DNA of 35,640 nt from a virus: positions 1 through 35,640 of IMG/VR virus record IMGVR_UViG_3300033144_003964; one strand, 5' to 3'. Under the pieces are notes generated by a model, which saw only the letters and a list, made by a program, of their open reading frames with translations, was not told where the DNA came from and ran no database searches. Of the stretch, positions 1,827 through 35,635 are shown piece after piece. The translations under genes and the position numbers were made by a program. Every line of letters begins with the position of its first letter. Position 1 is the stretch's first letter.

Positions 1827-2585
1827 ATGAAATTTTGGAAAAAAATTTCTGTATTATTTACCGTATTATGTGTTTCTTTATCTATGACTTTATCAATGCC
1901 TAAACAGGTTGGTGCTGAGAATATGATGGATATCACATTGGATATTTCAAATGTTGATCCTACAGCCGACCAACTTAAAGTGTATTATGATACTCAAGCA
2001 ACACCACCGTTAAATGGGAATGGAGCCACAGCAGGTTCGTCTCCGATTATTCTTTCAGACCCCAATATCACAGAATATACAATTACTGTACCACAAGGAA
2101 TCTACTATGTTGCAGTAAGTGCTGTAGATGATGGTGATGAAGGCCCACTGAGTAGTATTAAAAGATATGAAACAATTGAAGGGTTTCAACCTCAAGTATT
2201 AGGTGTAAACGGTTATGGTGAAGGTGAGACCGTAAATGTTTTACTCGACTTCGAAGGAACTGCATATTTAAATAATGGAAAATTAATTGTGACTTTAAAT
2301 AGTGGTGGTTATATTGAAGTTGATACTATTAATTGGGCATCACAATTGACAATTCCATATACAGTTGGTGCCGGTGAAAATGCAGATCCACTTCAAGTTG
2401 CTGATATTTATTTAGATCCAAACGATCCAGGTGGTGACGTGGAGCTTTATAATAGTGCTATGAAAAATATTTGTACTGATATAGTTATTGGTAGTAACTT
2501 GGGAGATGATCCTAATAACTATATTATTATTGACACGGTTGAACCAACTGCACCTAGTCTGAGTGTAGGTTGTTGTACTAATTAA
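1827..2585 (+). CDS. Secreted adhesin-like protein with FN3-like and Ig-like domains, 252 aa
   Basis: A signal peptide (residues 1-31: KK, a hydrophobic core, then VGA before EN) marks it for export. Residues about 35-115 look like a fibronectin III-type fold (ending EGPLSSIKRYETIEG). Residues about 125-245 follow the pattern of repeated Ig-like domains of bacterial surface adhesins: GETVNVLLDF, LIVTLNSGG, LTIPYTVGAGEN, then IIIDTVEPTAP. Only one such unit is present and the protein ends CCTN. AGGAGG at about 1815-1820 fits the ATG. It is probably made in the infected cell and exported rather than packed in the virion. The domain call is by pattern recognition only. Confidence 0.6.
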   Translation: MKFWKKISVLFTVLCVSLSMTLSMPKQVGAENMMDITLDISNVDPTADQLKVYYDTQATPPLNGNGATAGSSPIILSDPNITEYTITVPQGIYYVAVSAVDDGDEGPLSSIKRYETIEGFQPQVLGVNGYGEGETVNVLLDFEGTAYLNNGKLIVTLNSGGYIEVDTINWASQLTIPYTVGAGENADPLQVADIYLDPNDPGGDVELYNSAMKNICTDIVIGSNLGDDPNNYIIIDTVEPTAPSLSVGCCTN

Positions 2586-2614
2586 TTTACCGGAATGAAA
2601 ATAAATAAATAAAT

Positions 2615-3092
2615 TAGACAGAATGATATTGTCTTACATCAATTATTAATAACAGCTTTGCTTGGTGGAGCTTGAAAGTTGTTAATCTATCAATGATTTG
2701 GCAGAGATAGAAATTGATGGTGAAGCTAATTTATTAATTGATACTATTGAACTAGTGTTAAATAGCCTTAAGCACAATCGATATTTTAGATCCTCATTAT
2801 AGATGGAACAATTGGGTAAGTTCCATATGAAAAGGTTGAAAGATTTTTCAGATTAGTACAAAGACCTTAAAGTACCAATGAGTAATATCGATAGAGAGAT
2901 GGTGGCAAGTCTCGTTTAATATAAACTGCTTATTAATTAATAAATTTTAGCAATATCATTCTGTCTATATTCTCACATTATAAAGAGTGATATTTGTCTC
3001 ACATTGATTAAGAATAACTCGTTAGAAAGGGTGGGAGAGTTATCAATATGAGGGATATTAATGTCGGAGCTTGCAAGATCATTCTTTATAAT
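2615..3092 (+). ncRNA. Large structured non-coding RNA candidate (ROOL/GOLLD-like)
   Basis: The 650-base stretch 2586-3235 holds no credible gene but dense secondary structure. Domain 1 is closed by a perfect 17-bp stem (2615-2631 with 2951-2967). Inside are 2645-2653/2678-2686 (one G-U), 2686-2691/2706-2711, a 9-bp stem 2777-2785/2884-2892 and a 7-bp hairpin 2803-2809/2820-2826. Domain 2 is closed by a 15-bp stem (2977-2991/3078-3092, one G-U), with inner stems 2998-3006/3044-3052 (one C-A mismatch) and 3014-3020/3037-3043. Length, multibranch form and position beside phage tRNAs recall ROOL and GOLLD RNAs; identity is unproven. The remainder, 3093-3235, shows only weak hairpins. Strand is taken from the flanking genes. 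Confidence 0.65.
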
Positions 3093-3235
3093 ACTATTGG
3101 AAGATGATGGTAATCCTTTATCCTAATGGTTAAAGAAAAATGGATATGTTTTTAAATCAAAATGTGATTCAGTTGGCATTATTGCAACTTGATCAATTGA
3201 TATAAAATTATAAATATTATTTGGAGGACCATATT

Positions 3236-3751
3236 ATGAAAGAATTAAAAGGTGATTTATTAACATTAAAAAAAGGATATATTTGCCATCAGGTAAACGT
3301 TGATGGTAAAATGGGTGCTGGCCTAGCACTCCAAATAAAAAATAAATGGCCAGAAGTATTTCAAAAATATAAAGCCCGTTGTGAAATATTTAAAAAACAT
3401 CCTGAAGAATTATTAGGTCAAACTCAAACTATTATGGTCGGTTCAATGTTGGGTATTATCAACGTATTTGGTCAATTTTTATATAGAGATATGAGACCAA
3501 CCAGATATGATGCTGTTGTTGATGCCTTTGAAAAAATCAGTCCATTTCAATTTCTTGATAAAGGTCGTAATCTTTACACTCCAAAATATATGGGTTGTGC
3601 TCTCGGTGGAGGAATTTGGGATATATATTTATCAATTGTTAAATTTTATTTACCAGAGGTTAATGTAGTTGAATTTGAACGTGGAGAAGAAATTTACGAT
3701 CCTCTTCACCACATAGAATGGGGAGGACCGATTCCTAAACCTAATAAATGA
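3236..3751 (+). CDS. Macro-domain protein, probable ADP-ribosyl hydrolase, 171 aa
   Basis: The order of motifs is that of macro domains of the DarG/TARG1/Poa1 type: KGDLLTLKKGYICHQVN at the start, DGKMGAGLALQIKNKWP with the glycine-rich ADP-ribose loop, a YKARC helix, INVFGQ, a PTRYDAV helix, and MGCALGGGIWDIY as the second phosphate loop. Such proteins remove ADP-ribose from proteins or nucleic acids. GGAGG at 3223-3227 places the start at ATG 3236, not at the TTG at 3221. The catalytic residues differ between subgroups and I cannot fix the substrate. It is the first gene after the structured RNA and lies ~1 kb before a NADAR gene that also acts on ADP-ribose. Confidence 0.85.
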   Translation: MKELKGDLLTLKKGYICHQVNVDGKMGAGLALQIKNKWPEVFQKYKARCEIFKKHPEELLGQTQTIMVGSMLGIINVFGQFLYRDMRPTRYDAVVDAFEKISPFQFLDKGRNLYTPKYMGCALGGGIWDIYLSIVKFYLPEVNVVEFERGEEIYDPLHHIEWGGPIPKPNK

Positions 3752-4184: not shown

Positions 4185-4257
4185 GGCCCCATCGTCTAAC
4201 GGATAAGACACAGGACTTTCAATCCTGTAAAGGTGAGTTCGACCCTCCCTGGGGCTA
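4185..4257 (+). tRNA. tRNA-Glu (TTC)
   Basis: The acceptor stem pairs fully (ggcccca with tggggct, one G-T). The anticodon arm is cagga, loop ctttcaa, tcctg (TTC). The T-arm gtgag/ctccc has one mismatch. CCA is not encoded. Confidence 0.93.
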
Positions 4258-4281
4258 CTTAAATATTTGTTTTAAAAGGAG

Positions 4282-4506
4282 TTGATAACAATAGATTTAA
4301 TACGAATAGGTTTTATTATTTGGTTAATATTAGGTGGATTAGTTGGAATGATTATTTTTCCCGAATTGGATGAAATATCTATTTGGAAAATGTTTTTATT
4401 AATGCTAATTTTGGGACCAATTGGTTGGTTGTGTAATATTTTCATGATTGCATTTTTAATATTAATAGGAATATGTGTATTAATAAGAATGATATTTAAA
4501 TTTTAG
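4282..4506 (+). CDS. Small membrane protein, 74 aa (start uncertain)
   Basis: A mostly hydrophobic protein with two to three transmembrane segments (about residues 5-26, 34-48, 50-72). The AAAAGGA site (4274-4280) lies only 1 nt before TTG 4282, which is too close. The next in-frame codons are ATA, so the true start may be a rare ATA or ATT a few codons on. The TAG stop ends on the first base of tRNA-Ala, a one-base overlap. Function not recognised. Confidence 0.5.
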   Translation: MITIDLIRIGFIIWLILGGLVGMIIFPELDEISIWKMFLLMLILGPIGWLCNIFMIAFLILIGICVLIRMIFKF

Positions 4507-4581
4507 GGGCCATAGCTCAGTTTGGGTCAGAGCACCTGCCTTGCAAGCAGGGGGTCGAGAGTTCGAATCCCTTCACCTCCG
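4506..4581 (+). tRNA. tRNA-Ala (TGC), imperfect acceptor stem
   Basis: The D-arm and anticodon arm (cctgc, loop cttgcaa, gcagg; TGC) are clean. The T-arm gagag/ccctt has one A-C mismatch. In the acceptor stem (ggggcca with cacctcc) the outer four pairs form, but positions 5, 6 and 7 do not. CCA is not encoded. The 3' acceptor strand would pair better with the 5' strand of tRNA-Gln. Confidence 0.8.
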
Positions 4582-4848: not shown

Positions 4849-5412
4849 ATGTTAAAAACTATCGATCATTTTCATGGAGAAACTGCATATTTATCAAATT
4901 TTTTCAAACGTGCTATGCCCTGGAAAGGTCATTGGTTTCCAACGAGTGAACATGTTTATCATAGTGAAAAAGTCAAAGATAGAATATACAGCCTATAAAA
5001 CAGAATTAATGATTCAAAAAGAAATTGATAGTTACAACCAAAAAATTTATGATAATTGTGATGATTATAATCAGGCAGTTAAAGAATTTTTAGGATATGA
5101 ATGTAGTGCTGGTAAAGCAAAAAGAATATGTAATATTAAAGAATTAAAAAAATATCATATGTTAAAGGAAAATTGGTTTGATATTAATATTCCAATTATG
5201 GAAGAAATCAATTATGTTAAATTTACCTATTTCCATGATATCCGTGACAAGCTCATTGCTACCGGTGATGCCATCATCATTGAAGGTAATTATTGGGGGG
5301 GGGTGATGATTTTTGGGGAATGATTAAAGACCCCATTACCGGTGAATGGAAAGGTAGAAACGAATTAGGTAAAATCCATATGAGAAATAGAGAAAAATTG
5401 TTACATTTATAA
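4849..5412 (+). pseudogene. NADAR-domain protein, interrupted by two frameshifts
   Basis: Frame 1 from ATG 4849 (AGGAGAA upstream) reads MLKTIDHFHGETAYLSNFF, then WFPTSEHVYHSEKVKD, the N-terminal signature of NADAR (YbiA-like) proteins, which act on ADP-ribose-linked substrates. It stops near 4997. A second frame continues with AYKTELMIQKE ... FTYFHDIRDKLIATGDA ... EGNYWG to a run of nine G (5295-5303). The third part, DDFWGMIKDPITGEWKGRNELG ending at 5412, needs one more shift. Together the pieces give the expected full length of about 185 aa. It is either a decayed gene, a phase-variable gene or a read error. It may work with the macro-domain gene upstream. Confidence 0.75.
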
Positions 5413-7170: not shown

Positions 7171-7617
7171 GTGTTGACAAAACAAAGAGTTAGAGAATTT
7201 TTGAAGTGTTCAAATGATTATAAATATTTCAGAAACAATTATCTAATTCAAGATAATAATTCTGAGGCATTGACTTTTATCTGTTGGATTCTTTTATGTA
7301 AATCGAATAAAACTATAATATATTTAATCAAAGATTTGAAAAATGGAGAACAATTAATTATAACTCTTTATCGATTTTTAGAAAATCTACCAAGGTGGAT
7401 AAAACCAATATTCATTGAAAAAAATAAATCTGGTTTTACACTAGAAAACGGAAATCGATTCTGTGTTGTTTCTAAACGAAACAAATCTAGAGATATAAGA
7501 TTTGATTATGTCGTAGTTAATAGTTTTTCAATTATTGACGAATACAAAGATGATTTAAAACTTTCAATGAAAAAACCTATTAATAATCTCAACAGAAGAA
7601 TAATATATTTAATATAG
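7171..7617 (+). CDS. Truncated, ATP-site-less paralogue of the terminase N-terminal domain, 148 aa
   Basis: The protein lines up with the first ~180 residues of the TerL encoded next. REFLKCSNDYKYFRNNYL matches SEWMKCQNSFDYFIRNYI. LYRFLENLPRWIKPIFIEKNKSGFTLENG matches FIAGFIDKLPKWMNPGFDKRNERSFELLNG. FDYVVVNSFSIIDE sits where TerL has FLILDEAAFT. The Walker A region is lost and the Walker B acidic pair is absent, so it should not hydrolyse ATP. The start is GTG 7171 or TTG 7174 after AAGGAG (7160-7165). It occupies the place where small terminase usually lies. I infer a diverged tandem duplicate, perhaps a regulator of packaging. Confidence 0.6.
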   Translation: MLTKQRVREFLKCSNDYKYFRNNYLIQDNNSEALTFICWILLCKSNKTIIYLIKDLKNGEQLIITLYRFLENLPRWIKPIFIEKNKSGFTLENGNRFCVVSKRNKSRDIRFDYVVVNSFSIIDEYKDDLKLSMKKPINNLNRRIIYLI

Positions 7618-16411: not shown

Positions 16412-16424
16412 AATGACGGAACAT

Positions 16425-16462
16425 ATGCAGGAAAGGTTAAACAATTATAACCTTTCCTGCAT
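16425..16462. terminator. Bidirectional terminator between convergent virion operons
   Basis: A perfect 14-bp stem (16425-16438 with 16449-16462) with a 10-base loop lies in the 62-nt gap between the + strand stop (16411) and the - strand stop (16474). T-rich bases follow on both strands. Confidence 0.9.
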
Positions 16463-16473
16463 TTAATTCGTTA

Positions 16474-32033: not shown

Positions 32034-32570
32034 ATGAAATATTTGCTAATTCTATTACTGTTATTACCATCTTCAACATATGCCATCAATGTTAAAAGAA
32101 TTGATCCATATGCCAATATCAAATTTGAAGCAATCGAAAATTTATATTCTTCCAAATCGGATATAACTATTCGATTTGATGGGAGAGGTAACTATCGAAG
32201 AATAAGTTTAAAATTGTTATCTCTTGATGTTAATGGAATGGTTAAAGTAGAGTTTCCACGAAATATCATAACAAACGAATATGTTAAATTATTAAAAGGT
32301 GTCGATTCTCAATTATCAATGAAAGTTATTTCATTTGATGGAGAAATTGATGTTATAATTCGAGATATTCATAGCAATAAATCCCTCTTAGTAGTTAAAC
32401 TGAGAGGGATTATACACTCCGATTTACATCAAAGAACCACTATATATAATGATGCTGGAGGTGTTAGAATTTATCACAATCTCCAATATAGAGATTGGTC
32501 TTTTAATGTTGGAGTTCGGGAGAGTGATGAATCAATACAACCCAATTTTAGTATTTCTAAAAAATGGTAA
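32034..32570 (+). CDS. Exported hypothetical protein, 178 aa
   Basis: A signal peptide (MKYLLILLLLLPSSTYA) precedes a beta-rich protein with alternating charged and hydrophobic residues. No cysteines, no anchor, so it should be released or wall-bound. It follows the TasA-like gene by 18 nt, suggesting joint production of two exported proteins. Function unknown. Its coding sequence contains a perfect 9-bp hairpin (32380-32388 with 32403-32411) that is probably incidental. Confidence 0.65.
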   Translation: MKYLLILLLLLPSSTYAINVKRIDPYANIKFEAIENLYSSKSDITIRFDGRGNYRRISLKLLSLDVNGMVKVEFPRNIITNEYVKLLKGVDSQLSMKVISFDGEIDVIIRDIHSNKSLLVVKLRGIIHSDLHQRTTIYNDAGGVRIYHNLQYRDWSFNVGVRESDESIQPNFSISKKW

Positions 32571-32587
32571 CCTAAAGGAGAATCAAA

Positions 32588-32854
32588 TTGTATAAACTAA
32601 TTGGTGGAACTAAAAAAGACAACGATGATTCCTTTCCGTGTGATAAAAGTCAGTTTACAGAACTTATGAACACACAGGTAGGATGTGATGAACAATGTGC
32701 TTTTAAATTGGCAGATGGAATACTGGCCGAATTAATTAAAGAGAAAATTGAAGCCGGTCAAAGATATCCACCCGATGCCAATCCGATTGTAATATTACTC
32801 GATAAAAATGATCAATTCATAGCCACCATTCAACCCAAAGATGACAACAAATAA
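32588..32854 (+). CDS. Hypothetical protein with CxxxC, 88 aa
   Basis: The start is TTG 32588 after AAAGGAGAA. The protein is acidic, with cysteines in FPCDKS and GCDEQCAFKLADGIL, a helical centre and an IVILLDKNDQFIATIQPK strand pair at the end. No signal peptide. Not recognised. Confidence 0.55.
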   Translation: MYKLIGGTKKDNDDSFPCDKSQFTELMNTQVGCDEQCAFKLADGILAELIKEKIEAGQRYPPDANPIVILLDKNDQFIATIQPKDDNK

Positions 32855-32866
32855 GGAGAACTAATT

Positions 32867-33280
32867 ATGTTACAATTCAAAAATATGACCGGACTTTTAC
32901 CTGTTAATTTGGGATATTGGGTAATTGAATTAAGTGAAAATTCTTTCGTTGCCAACATCAATATCCGATATACGGTTGTGATATATATTCGGGCTGATGA
33001 AAAAGGATGCCTTGATCGTAGGGTTAGTTGTCGTCTTCCCCTATTCGAAGACGATCCAGAAACAGAATTGAGTAAAACAGTATCCGATACTGAGCTGGAA
33101 CTCATTGATGGTATTTATTACAGAGCATTTTATAAATATCCATCCGGTGATACCTTGGAGAAAGCATTTGCCTGTGCTGAGAAAATTGTTAAGGATACCA
33201 TCACCAAACTTCAATCCATCGTCAACGAAAATGGTATGGTAAAGTCGGGTAATCAAAACCTCGACATCAGTTTGTATTAA
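32867..33280 (+). CDS. Hypothetical protein, 137 aa
   Basis: Beta strands in the first half (YWVIELSENSFVANINIRYTVVIYIR) and a long helix near the end (DTLEKAFACAEKIVKDTITKLQSIVNE). A compact alpha/beta soluble protein. AAGGAGAA supports the ATG. It is the last gene before the terminator at 33316. Not recognised. Confidence 0.6.
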   Translation: MLQFKNMTGLLPVNLGYWVIELSENSFVANINIRYTVVIYIRADEKGCLDRRVSCRLPLFEDDPETELSKTVSDTELELIDGIYYRAFYKYPSGDTLEKAFACAEKIVKDTITKLQSIVNENGMVKSGNQNLDISLY

Positions 33281-33315
33281 CTGATTGGTTGGATATAAAT
33301 TAATAAATATGGAAT

Positions 33316-33345
33316 GGAGCCTGATATTTATATCAGGCTCCTTCT
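33316..33345 (+). terminator. Rho-independent terminator-like hairpin
   Basis: A perfect 10-bp stem (ggagcctgat with atcaggctcc), extendable by one A-T pair, with a short loop. The following T-tract is weak (CTTCTATATA). It closes the operon that begins near 28,300 and is directly followed by the second AT-rich element. Confidence 0.75.
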
Positions 33346-33368
33346 ATATATATTAATATGTGATAGTT
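33346..33368 (+). promoter_or_regulatory. AT-rich upstream element, copy 2
   Basis: Matches 28295-28317 at 21 of 23 positions and lies between a terminator and the first gene (33408) of the thyX operon, the expected place for a promoter. Confidence 0.45.
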
Positions 33369-33407
33369 GTAAACGATCAATTTTTTTTAATTAGAAGGAG
33401 AGTTTAT

Positions 33408-33722
33408 ATGATTGAAAAAGTAGATAAAAGATTGGAATATTCAAATGAACATTTTAAAAAGAGTTTTCCACAAGAACCTGAAAAACTTCCCACTAAGAGA
33501 TTAATATCAGTTCTTCACAAAGCACGAGCACATCGAAGTTCTATTGCCAATTATCATGGTCCCAGATGTTGTGAATTTTGTCATGAGTATATTGGTGATG
33601 ATTGGGAAAATGATGTTGGTAAGTTTTTAGTTATTTATGATAGTTATATTGAAAAGTTAAAAACGATTTTGGCAACACGGCCTCATATTGAAAGGGAAAA
33701 TAAATATGGCATTCAGACATAA
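33408..33722 (+). CDS. Hypothetical protein with Cys pair, 104 aa
   Basis: GAAGGAG at 33393-33399 supports ATG 33408. The product is helical and charged, with GPRCCEFCHEYIGDDWEND in the centre, a possible partial zinc site (CCxxCH). The first 47 nt of the longer frame from 33360 lie in the promoter-like region. It overlaps the next gene by 17 bases. Function unknown. Confidence 0.6.
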   Translation: MIEKVDKRLEYSNEHFKKSFPQEPEKLPTKRLISVLHKARAHRSSIANYHGPRCCEFCHEYIGDDWENDVGKFLVIYDSYIEKLKTILATRPHIERENKYGIQT

Positions 33723-33997: not shown

Positions 33998-35635
33998 TTG
34001 TCTGAAGTATTTTTATATGAACACACACCTAATCCAGAGAAGGTGATAGCACGAGCAGCCCGTTTGTGTTATTCATCTGCTACTCTGGAGGAATTAACAA
34101 AAGAAATTGATGAAAAAGATGTAACAAAATTTGTCCAAAAATTATTTCAATTGGGACACCTTTCACCATTTGAACATGCCAGTGCTACATTTGGAATTAG
34201 ATGTTCAAGAGCATGTTCACATCAACTAGTCCGAAGTAGGATAGCTTCCCACTGTTTATCAGGTGATACAATAGTAAAATCATATTCAGCAAAAAAAAGA
34301 TTTCCAACAAAACAACATACTTTAAAACAATTATATGATTGGTCATTTGATTATAAAAGAAAAGGTAGATTAAAATTAATAAATTTAAGAAGCATCGATG
34401 AAAAATATAAAATTTTAATTCCAGGAAAAATAAAAAATATAATATATACTGGAAAGCAGGAGTTATATGAAGTTAAAACAAGATGTGGAAGAACTATCAA
34501 ATCATCATTAAATGAATTATTTTTTACCGAAGATGGATGGAAGACATTATCAGAATTGTCTGTTAGTGATTATATATATGCTAATGGTATTTCATCAGAT
34601 ATTAATAAAGAATGGTTAAAAGAAATGTATTTAAAGAAAAACATTCCTAGAAAAAAATTAGCTAAAATTATGAAAATTGGTGATAGTACATTAGGAAAAA
34701 TAATAAGAAAATTTAATTTACAAAAACCAAAATCTCAATACCCAAATAGACATAGTAATGGTGGTGGTAAAAATGGAATGTTCACAAAAGAAGGACTGGA
34801 ACGATTAAAACCATCAAAAATTGGAGATAAAAATCCATCGTGGAAAGGTGAAAAAGCATCAAAAAATGCAGGAAATCTTAGGGCATGGAGAAAATATAAA
34901 GTTAATATATGTGATACGTGTGGATCTAAAGAAAATTTAGAAAGACATCATATTGATAAAAATACATTAAATAATGATAAAGATAATATATTGATATTAT
35001 GTGAAACATGTCATAGAGGTCATCATGTTGGTCAAGGTATTAAAACCGTTTTTAGAACACCAATAACATCTATTAAATATATTGGTGTCGATGATACATA
35101 TGATATTGAAATGGAGGGTCCGAATTTTAATTTTTCAGCTAATGGATTGATAGTTCACAATTCACAAAAATCTCAGAGATATGTATCTGAGAATAATTTC
35201 AAATTTTTTATTCCAAAAACAATAAAAGAATCAGATCTTAAAATGAAGTATTATATTATCATGGATCAAATCGAATTGTTATATAATGAAATGAAAAAAG
35301 ATGGAATTCCAAATGAAGATTGTCGATATATTTTACCAAATGCATGTGAAACACAAATAATTACAACCATGAATTTTAGAGAATTGTTGCATTTCTTTAA
35401 TGTTCGATGCTGTCATAGGTCTCAATGGGAAATTAGATATATTGCCATGAAGATGTTGTGGTTTGCTCGAATTATTGCTCCAAATATATTCATGAAAGCC
35501 GGTCCAAGTTGTTATACAAATGGATCATGTCCCGAAGGTAAAATGTCATGTGGTAAAAGTAAATGGGTAAAAGATATTTTTTCAAGTAATATGAAATTGA
35601 TTAAAGAATCAAAAGTGAGTGATAATGAAATATGA
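33998..35635 (+). CDS. thyX: Flavin-dependent thymidylate synthase ThyX, interrupted by an intein, 545 aa precursor
   Basis: ThyX makes dTMP from dUMP using methylene-tetrahydrofolate and FAD. The host extein is residues 1-85 and 389-545, giving a normal ~242-aa ThyX after splicing. The family motif R-x-R-x-x-S...S-x-R-Y is split: RSRIASH at 79-85 and SQKSQRY at 389-395. FEHASATFGIRCSRACSHQL and ELLHFFNVRCCHRSQWEIR are family segments. The start is TTG 33998, 11 bases after AGGAGG. The intein sits in the active-site motif, where ThyX and other phage enzymes are often invaded. The window ends just after this gene. Confidence 0.95.
   Translation: MSEVFLYEHTPNPEKVIARAARLCYSSATLEELTKEIDEKDVTKFVQKLFQLGHLSPFEHASATFGIRCSRACSHQLVRSRIASHCLSGDTIVKSYSAKKRFPTKQHTLKQLYDWSFDYKRKGRLKLINLRSIDEKYKILIPGKIKNIIYTGKQELYEVKTRCGRTIKSSLNELFFTEDGWKTLSELSVSDYIYANGISSDINKEWLKEMYLKKNIPRKKLAKIMKIGDSTLGKIIRKFNLQKPKSQYPNRHSNGGGKNGMFTKEGLERLKPSKIGDKNPSWKGEKASKNAGNLRAWRKYKVNICDTCGSKENLERHHIDKNTLNNDKDNILILCETCHRGHHVGQGIKTVFRTPITSIKYIGVDDTYDIEMEGPNFNFSANGLIVHNSQKSQRYVSENNFKFFIPKTIKESDLKMKYYIIMDQIELLYNEMKKDGIPNEDCRYILPNACETQIITTMNFRELLHFFNVRCCHRSQWEIRYIAMKMLWFARIIAPNIFMKAGPSCYTNGSCPEGKMSCGKSKWVKDIFSSNMKLIKESKVSDNEI
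34253..35161 (+). mobile_element. Intein with HNH homing endonuclease inside thyX (303 aa)
   Basis: Block A is CLSGDTIV (C1), the penultimate residues are GLIVHN, and the +1 residue is Ser. Blocks F/G (DDTYDIEMEGPNFNFSANGLIVHN) are normal. In the centre is a helix-turn-helix (KLAKIMKIGDSTLGKIIRKF), a NUMOD3-like GDKNPSWKG and an HNH zinc-type nuclease (NICDTCGSKENLERHHIDKN, then NILILCETCHRGHH). Block B reads SSLNELFF, with Glu173 of the precursor where a His is usual (TxxH). Confidence 0.93.

Follow-up and report, generated by a model that had tools for sequence, protein, structure and literature searches.

Orphan RNAs recur in the tRNA islands of phages, the described cases being ROOL, GOLLD, T4 RNAC and RNAD, and the lncRNAs of phage K. 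Many GOLLD members are longer than 800 nt. ROOL (RF03087) and GOLLD are large structured RNAs located by phage tRNA islands and forming RNA-only cages, and the level of GOLLD is raised during lysis (PMC12286853). The T4 RNAC and RNAD, also known as species 1 and species 2, lie adjacent to each other in the T4 tRNA cluster and are 139 and 119 nt long, respectively. Both are late RNAs that have been validated by Northern blot (PMC9697503) and both are without a known role (PMC9697503, PMC3014915). In Staphylococcus phage K, two long lncRNAs by the tRNA genes are abundantly transcribed, their role not being known either (PMC9241854). Together with T4 RNAC and RNAD, they provide a precedent for orphan RNAs that stand in tandem within the tRNA cluster of a phage.

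The candidate RNA described here consists of two tandem modules, D1 and D2, lying among the clustered tRNA genes of a phage with a T4-type terminase. T4 RNAC and RNAD are its closest known analogues, these too being neighbouring RNAs inside a tRNA cluster. In contrast to D1 and D2, RNAC and RNAD show no evident paralogy to each other, the end of RNAC resembles a tRNA T arm, and both are considerably shorter than D1 (353 nt). The covariance model R1, which was built here from the candidate and recovers D1 and D2, gave no significant match in the T4 locus with the filters off. The phage K lncRNAs resemble the candidate in being two RNAs by tRNA genes; at the sequence level the comparison consisted of a blastn of the candidate in the phage collection, which gave no match.

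Genomic setting

The window, i.e. the whole stretch of DNA analysed, is the 35,640-bp IMG/VR virus record IMGVR_UViG_3300033144_003964. It carries a large terminase of T4 type along with baseplate and tail genes, and its source is an uncultured T4-like phage of bacteria. A large uncultured group has terminases sharing 51-93% identity with that of the window; all matches to GenBank phages were below 60% identity (about 28% among the matches listed). Six tRNA genes and a degenerate seventh are situated at the left end, all six within the first 4.6 kb, and the left-end genes and the RNA candidate are alike on the + strand. The features surrounding the candidate are the following:

1664-1741, + strand: tRNA-Gln, the closest tRNA upstream of the gene-free interval
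2586-3220, + strand: gene-free interval of 635 nt within the tRNA cluster, flanked by a secreted-protein gene (1827-2585) and the macrodomain gene (3221-3751)
4185-4258, + strand: tRNA-Glu, the closest tRNA downstream of the gene-free interval

A degenerate tRNA-Pro(TGG)-like sequence at 754-833 was detected by Rfam and missed by ARAGORN; mismatched acceptor stems were also observed in tRNA-Arg (9-83) and tRNA-Ala (4506-4580). The NADAR-domain gene at 4849-5400 is split over different frames, the frame changing near 4990-5000 and again at a poly-G close to 5300, and is a pseudogene or an assembly error. With the macrodomain gene it makes two ADP-ribose-related genes inside the tRNA cluster, a pair that could fit the expectation of counter-defence. 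Further along the window, a small ORF ahead of the terminase (7171-7617) is similar to the terminase N-terminus in the manner of a diverged copy, with the same layout present in two relatives (L004 and L011); a hairpin at 16416-16471 separates convergent genes and is probably a bidirectional terminator; and at 33998-35635 a thymidylate synthase contains an HNH-like stretch inside one open frame, either intein-like or a fused intron endonuclease.

The earlier note on this DNA had described the interval as gene-free, and the coding analysis agrees. No ORF of at least 60 aa was found between 2585 and 3221, stops occur in all six frames, and none of the frames holds the typical in-frame codon bias for long, so that no sustained coding frame crosses the region. 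A coding region was rejected due to the stops and the weak coding bias. A TAG-recoded gene was rejected as well, because TAG serves this phage as an ordinary stop codon (in 7 of 29 genes).

The interval could instead be a decayed gene or a spacer, its structure being the result of chance and of palindrome-forming mutation by template switching between arms. The frameshifted NADAR gene and the degenerate tRNAs in the neighbourhood indicate that the region may be decaying, and one frame is protein-like in pieces. However, the translations of these pieces had no relative among the fetched loci.

Structure of the candidate RNA

The elements of the predicted fold are listed below.

2615-2967, + strand: module D1, 353 nt; closing stem P1 2615-2631/2951-2967, a perfect 17 bp (18 with one G-U)
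2977-3092, + strand: module D2, 116 nt, the paralogue of D1 without P5; P1 2977-2996/3074-3092 with one A.G mismatch
2633-2635 (CUU) with 2723-2725 (AAG) in D1 and 2998-3000 (CUC) with 3067-3069 (GAG) in D2, + strand: P1b, with a compensatory change
2637-2644/2712-2719 in D1, enclosing P3 and P4, and 3002-3009/3056-3063 in D2, + strand: P2, in which a C-G pair of D1 is U-A in D2
about 2648-2684, + strand: P3 hairpin of D1, stem 2650-2659/2675-2684, GGUGG at 2664-2668
3013-3018/3039-3044, + strand: P3 hairpin of D2, GGUGG at 3030-3034
2686-2691/2706-2711, + strand: P4 hairpin of D1, 6 bp; reduced or absent in D2
2727-2949, + strand: P5 domain, inserted in D1 (220 nt) with GAAGC before it and GCAA after it; outer stem of 16 bp, 2728-2743/2931-2946
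3095-3220, + strand: 3' tail, in which the hairpins are weaker (z -2.2); TATAAATA at 3209-3216, immediately before the macrodomain gene

The stems reported in the earlier note were all recovered. The perfect 17-bp closing stem over 353 bases, P1 of D1, stands alone in the window: no other exact inverted repeat of 16 bp or longer occurs there within 420 nt, whereas shuffled windows are expected to hold 0.017. The second closed domain forms a perfect 15-bp helix when folded (2977-2991/3078-3092, one pair being G-U), and the inner stems correspond to P2, P3, P4, the outer stem of P5 and several further stems inside P5, most inner stems having a pairing probability of 0.7-0.97. The site corresponding to P5 in D2 is only two bases, UU.

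Compared with dinucleotide shuffles, the folding energies resulted in z values of -5.4 to -6 for D1 and -3.7 to -4.3 for D2. Part of this is contributed by the closing stem alone, the values inside P1 being -2.7 and -1.1, respectively. The removal of P5 improved the z of D1 to -6.9, which is consistent with P5 being an insert into the core. In the fold homologous to that of D1, D2 lies just 1.6 kcal/mol above its minimum. Several other 358-nt stretches of the AT-rich window reach z of about -5, a point in favour of a decayed spacer; folding energy alone is thus no proof of an RNA. Stretches of this kind are 33201-33608 and 32251-32608.

It is uncertain whether the 3' tail is part of the RNA. 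In a further explanation, the interval is a cis-acting leader, as an attenuator or a regulatory RNA, which serves the macrodomain gene (from 3221) or genes beyond it. The interval lies directly upstream of that gene, is co-directional with it and holds no gene of its own. On the other hand, 635 nt would be very long for a leader, the interval has no terminator-like hairpin, and no T-box or other riboswitch family of Rfam was matched. Moreover, the RNA is separated from the macrodomain gene by TATAAATA, the T4 late promoter motif, which is just mildly enriched. A leader is, for these reasons, distinctly improbable. As a point against the candidate RNA itself, neither a promoter nor a terminator is prominent.

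Antisense pairing of the candidate to the remaining window was not above chance. Short complementarities were detected between GGUGG and the 3' end of tRNA-Tyr and between GCUUGCAAG and the anticodon loop of tRNA-Ala, which at such length are expected by chance.

Comparison of the two modules

The earlier note was right in its observation and slightly understated it; the paralogy of D1 and D2 was overlooked. A 42-nt block at the 5' end is common to both modules, with a local alignment score of 45 compared with 24 ± 3.6 for shuffles, none of 1000 shuffles scoring as high. MAFFT, used without structural input on D2 and on D1 minus its inner domain, aligned the 5' block, the return strand of P2, GRAGC and GCAANATCATTCT. 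The 3' block and the P1-P1b-P2-P3 core are shared as well. Judged from these alignments, D1 and D2 are tandem paralogues of one folded core, with P5 inserted into D1 at one point. The single multibranch RNA of the earlier note is accordingly better described as two tandem modules, one with a 220-nt insert. The comparison of the paralogues backs the view of the note that a structured RNA lies next to the tRNA genes.

The comparison covered 34 shared pairs (P1 17, P1b 3, P2 8, P3 6), in which 14 substitutions amount to four double compensatory changes, three single changes of G-U type and three broken pairs. The double changes are G-C/U-A and C-G/A-U in P1, U-A/C-G in P1b and C-G/U-A in P2. The single changes are A-U/G-U in P1 and P2 and U-G/U-A in P3, all three involving G-U on the + strand. 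When 14 substitutions were placed at random, equal double changes and equally few broken pairs were obtained in about 1e-4 of the trials; the P1b pairs had been added after viewing the alignment, and the value without them was 5e-4. These probabilities are optimistic, because the structure was partly chosen on the same two sequences. Read as the - strand, the changes resulted in four double, one single and five broken pairs, compared with three broken on the + strand. The pairing kept through these changes and the G-U bias to the + strand form the best evidence for a selected + strand RNA. With two paralogues from one genome to compare, the argument from structure is good yet falls short of being conclusive.

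Paired changes can also be mimicked by template switching from arm to arm, as supposed for a decaying spacer. Here, the compensatory changes are spread over three distinct helices, whose arms lie as far as 350 nt from each other, and all three single changes preserve the pairing of the + strand. The decay of a gene or spacer is therefore quite unlikely.

The two modules might also be remnants of a small mobile element, with the closing stems as terminal inverted repeats and D2 as an internally deleted copy. TA at both ends is a trait of MITEs of the IS630/mariner type, and a perfect 17-bp inverted repeat with TA flanks, present in two copies of which one lacks the middle, corresponds to such elements. 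However, the TA at both ends is already implied by the pairing, and the terminal repeats of D1 and D2 differ by paired changes that recognition by a transposase would not favour. Furthermore, the similarity extends to the inner P1b, P2 and P3, with compensation and with G-U pairs on one strand only, and D1 and D2, which are adjacent, are the only copies, no further one having been detected in the window or elsewhere. We regard an origin from a mobile element as unlikely, and a structured + strand RNA as well supported but not proven.

Search for related RNAs

In a cmscan of the whole window with all of Rfam 15 (4227 families), only tRNAs were detected. The region 2500-3300, scanned with E up to 10, gave just weak matches under the gathering score, most of which concern snoRNA and miRNA families. 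Of ROOL, GOLLD and OLE, whose models the earlier note had proposed for a search, none matched. The ROOL model alone found nothing at E<=10 in the window, whereas in the positive control the same search recovered ROOL in the L. salivarius megaplasmid pMP118 (130 bits, 1e-29). For GOLLD and OLE the negative result comes from the all-family cmscan (E<=10), the positive control covering ROOL. As far as covariance models can, the named RNA classes are excluded. The likeness to ROOL and GOLLD lies in the similar size and the location by phage tRNA genes (PMC12286853), which would suit a highly diverged ROOL, GOLLD or other described large RNA beneath the sensitivity of the models. Given that neither the all-family scan at E up to 10 nor the ROOL model gave a match, the latter next to its strong control, such a diverged member is very improbable. 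The candidate, matching no Rfam family, is probably a new non-coding RNA.

With R1, nothing convincing was found in 84 loci around related terminases, in 50 whole records of terminase relatives, or in about 600 genomes of two phyla; the phyla had been picked without a known host and the last result carries little weight. Blastn against GenBank phages and plasmids and the searches via the flanking proteins gave no homologue of the candidate. The pattern scans of IMG/VR and GTDB yielded chance matches that failed R1; the first IMG/VR pattern was too short, and nearly all matches of the last scan lay inside open frames. Even among relatives with a 51-93% identical terminase no homologue was detected, the closest of them being short contigs that end before this region; very near records may escape these searches. 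In a 312-kb relative (L005), which also carries clustered tRNA genes and a homologue of the macrodomain gene, the gene-free gaps are without a comparable fold. At 2457-2582 of L005, within the tRNA cluster, there is a tRNA-like sequence with a hairpin of roughly 40 nt inserted near the D arm.

Discussion

We consider it probable, with moderate confidence, that the candidate is a non-coding RNA of the + strand, composed of two paralogous modules in tandem, and a stable product of the tRNA-cluster transcript. The RNA would be about 480 nt long (2613-3095), possibly extending to about 3200. The modules would have arisen via duplication of one P1-P1b-P2-P3 core, P5 having been either gained by D1 or lost by D2. 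Being co-directional with the neighbouring tRNA genes, the RNA would be made within the tRNA-cluster transcript. The long closing stems at the base of the two modules would protect it against exonucleases and allow host RNases to release it from the transcript as one or more stable RNAs, as with T4 RNAC and RNAD. An orphan of this sort is a candidate of a known kind, a tRNA-island phage RNA, and the tandem, insert-bearing architecture is unusual.

As to function, a speculative and rather doubtful suggestion is that the linked modules pack together and serve on their own as an RNA scaffold or decoy, in which the GGUGG of both P3 hairpins would be a contact site. With two copies of the core on a single chain, an intramolecular pseudo-dimer may be inferred. 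It is conceivable, if rather doubtful, that the candidate founds a new class of phage RNA, the duplicated core forming a covalently linked pseudo-dimer of which one half bears a 220-nt accessory domain.

If true, the pseudo-dimer would parallel, within one chain, the homo-oligomers that OLE, ROOL and GOLLD build from RNA alone. The duplicated core separates the common part, P1-P1b-P2-P3, from the optional P5. As another unrelated candidate with internal duplication, the RNA would suggest that structured RNAs have been recruited independently to the tRNA islands of phages.
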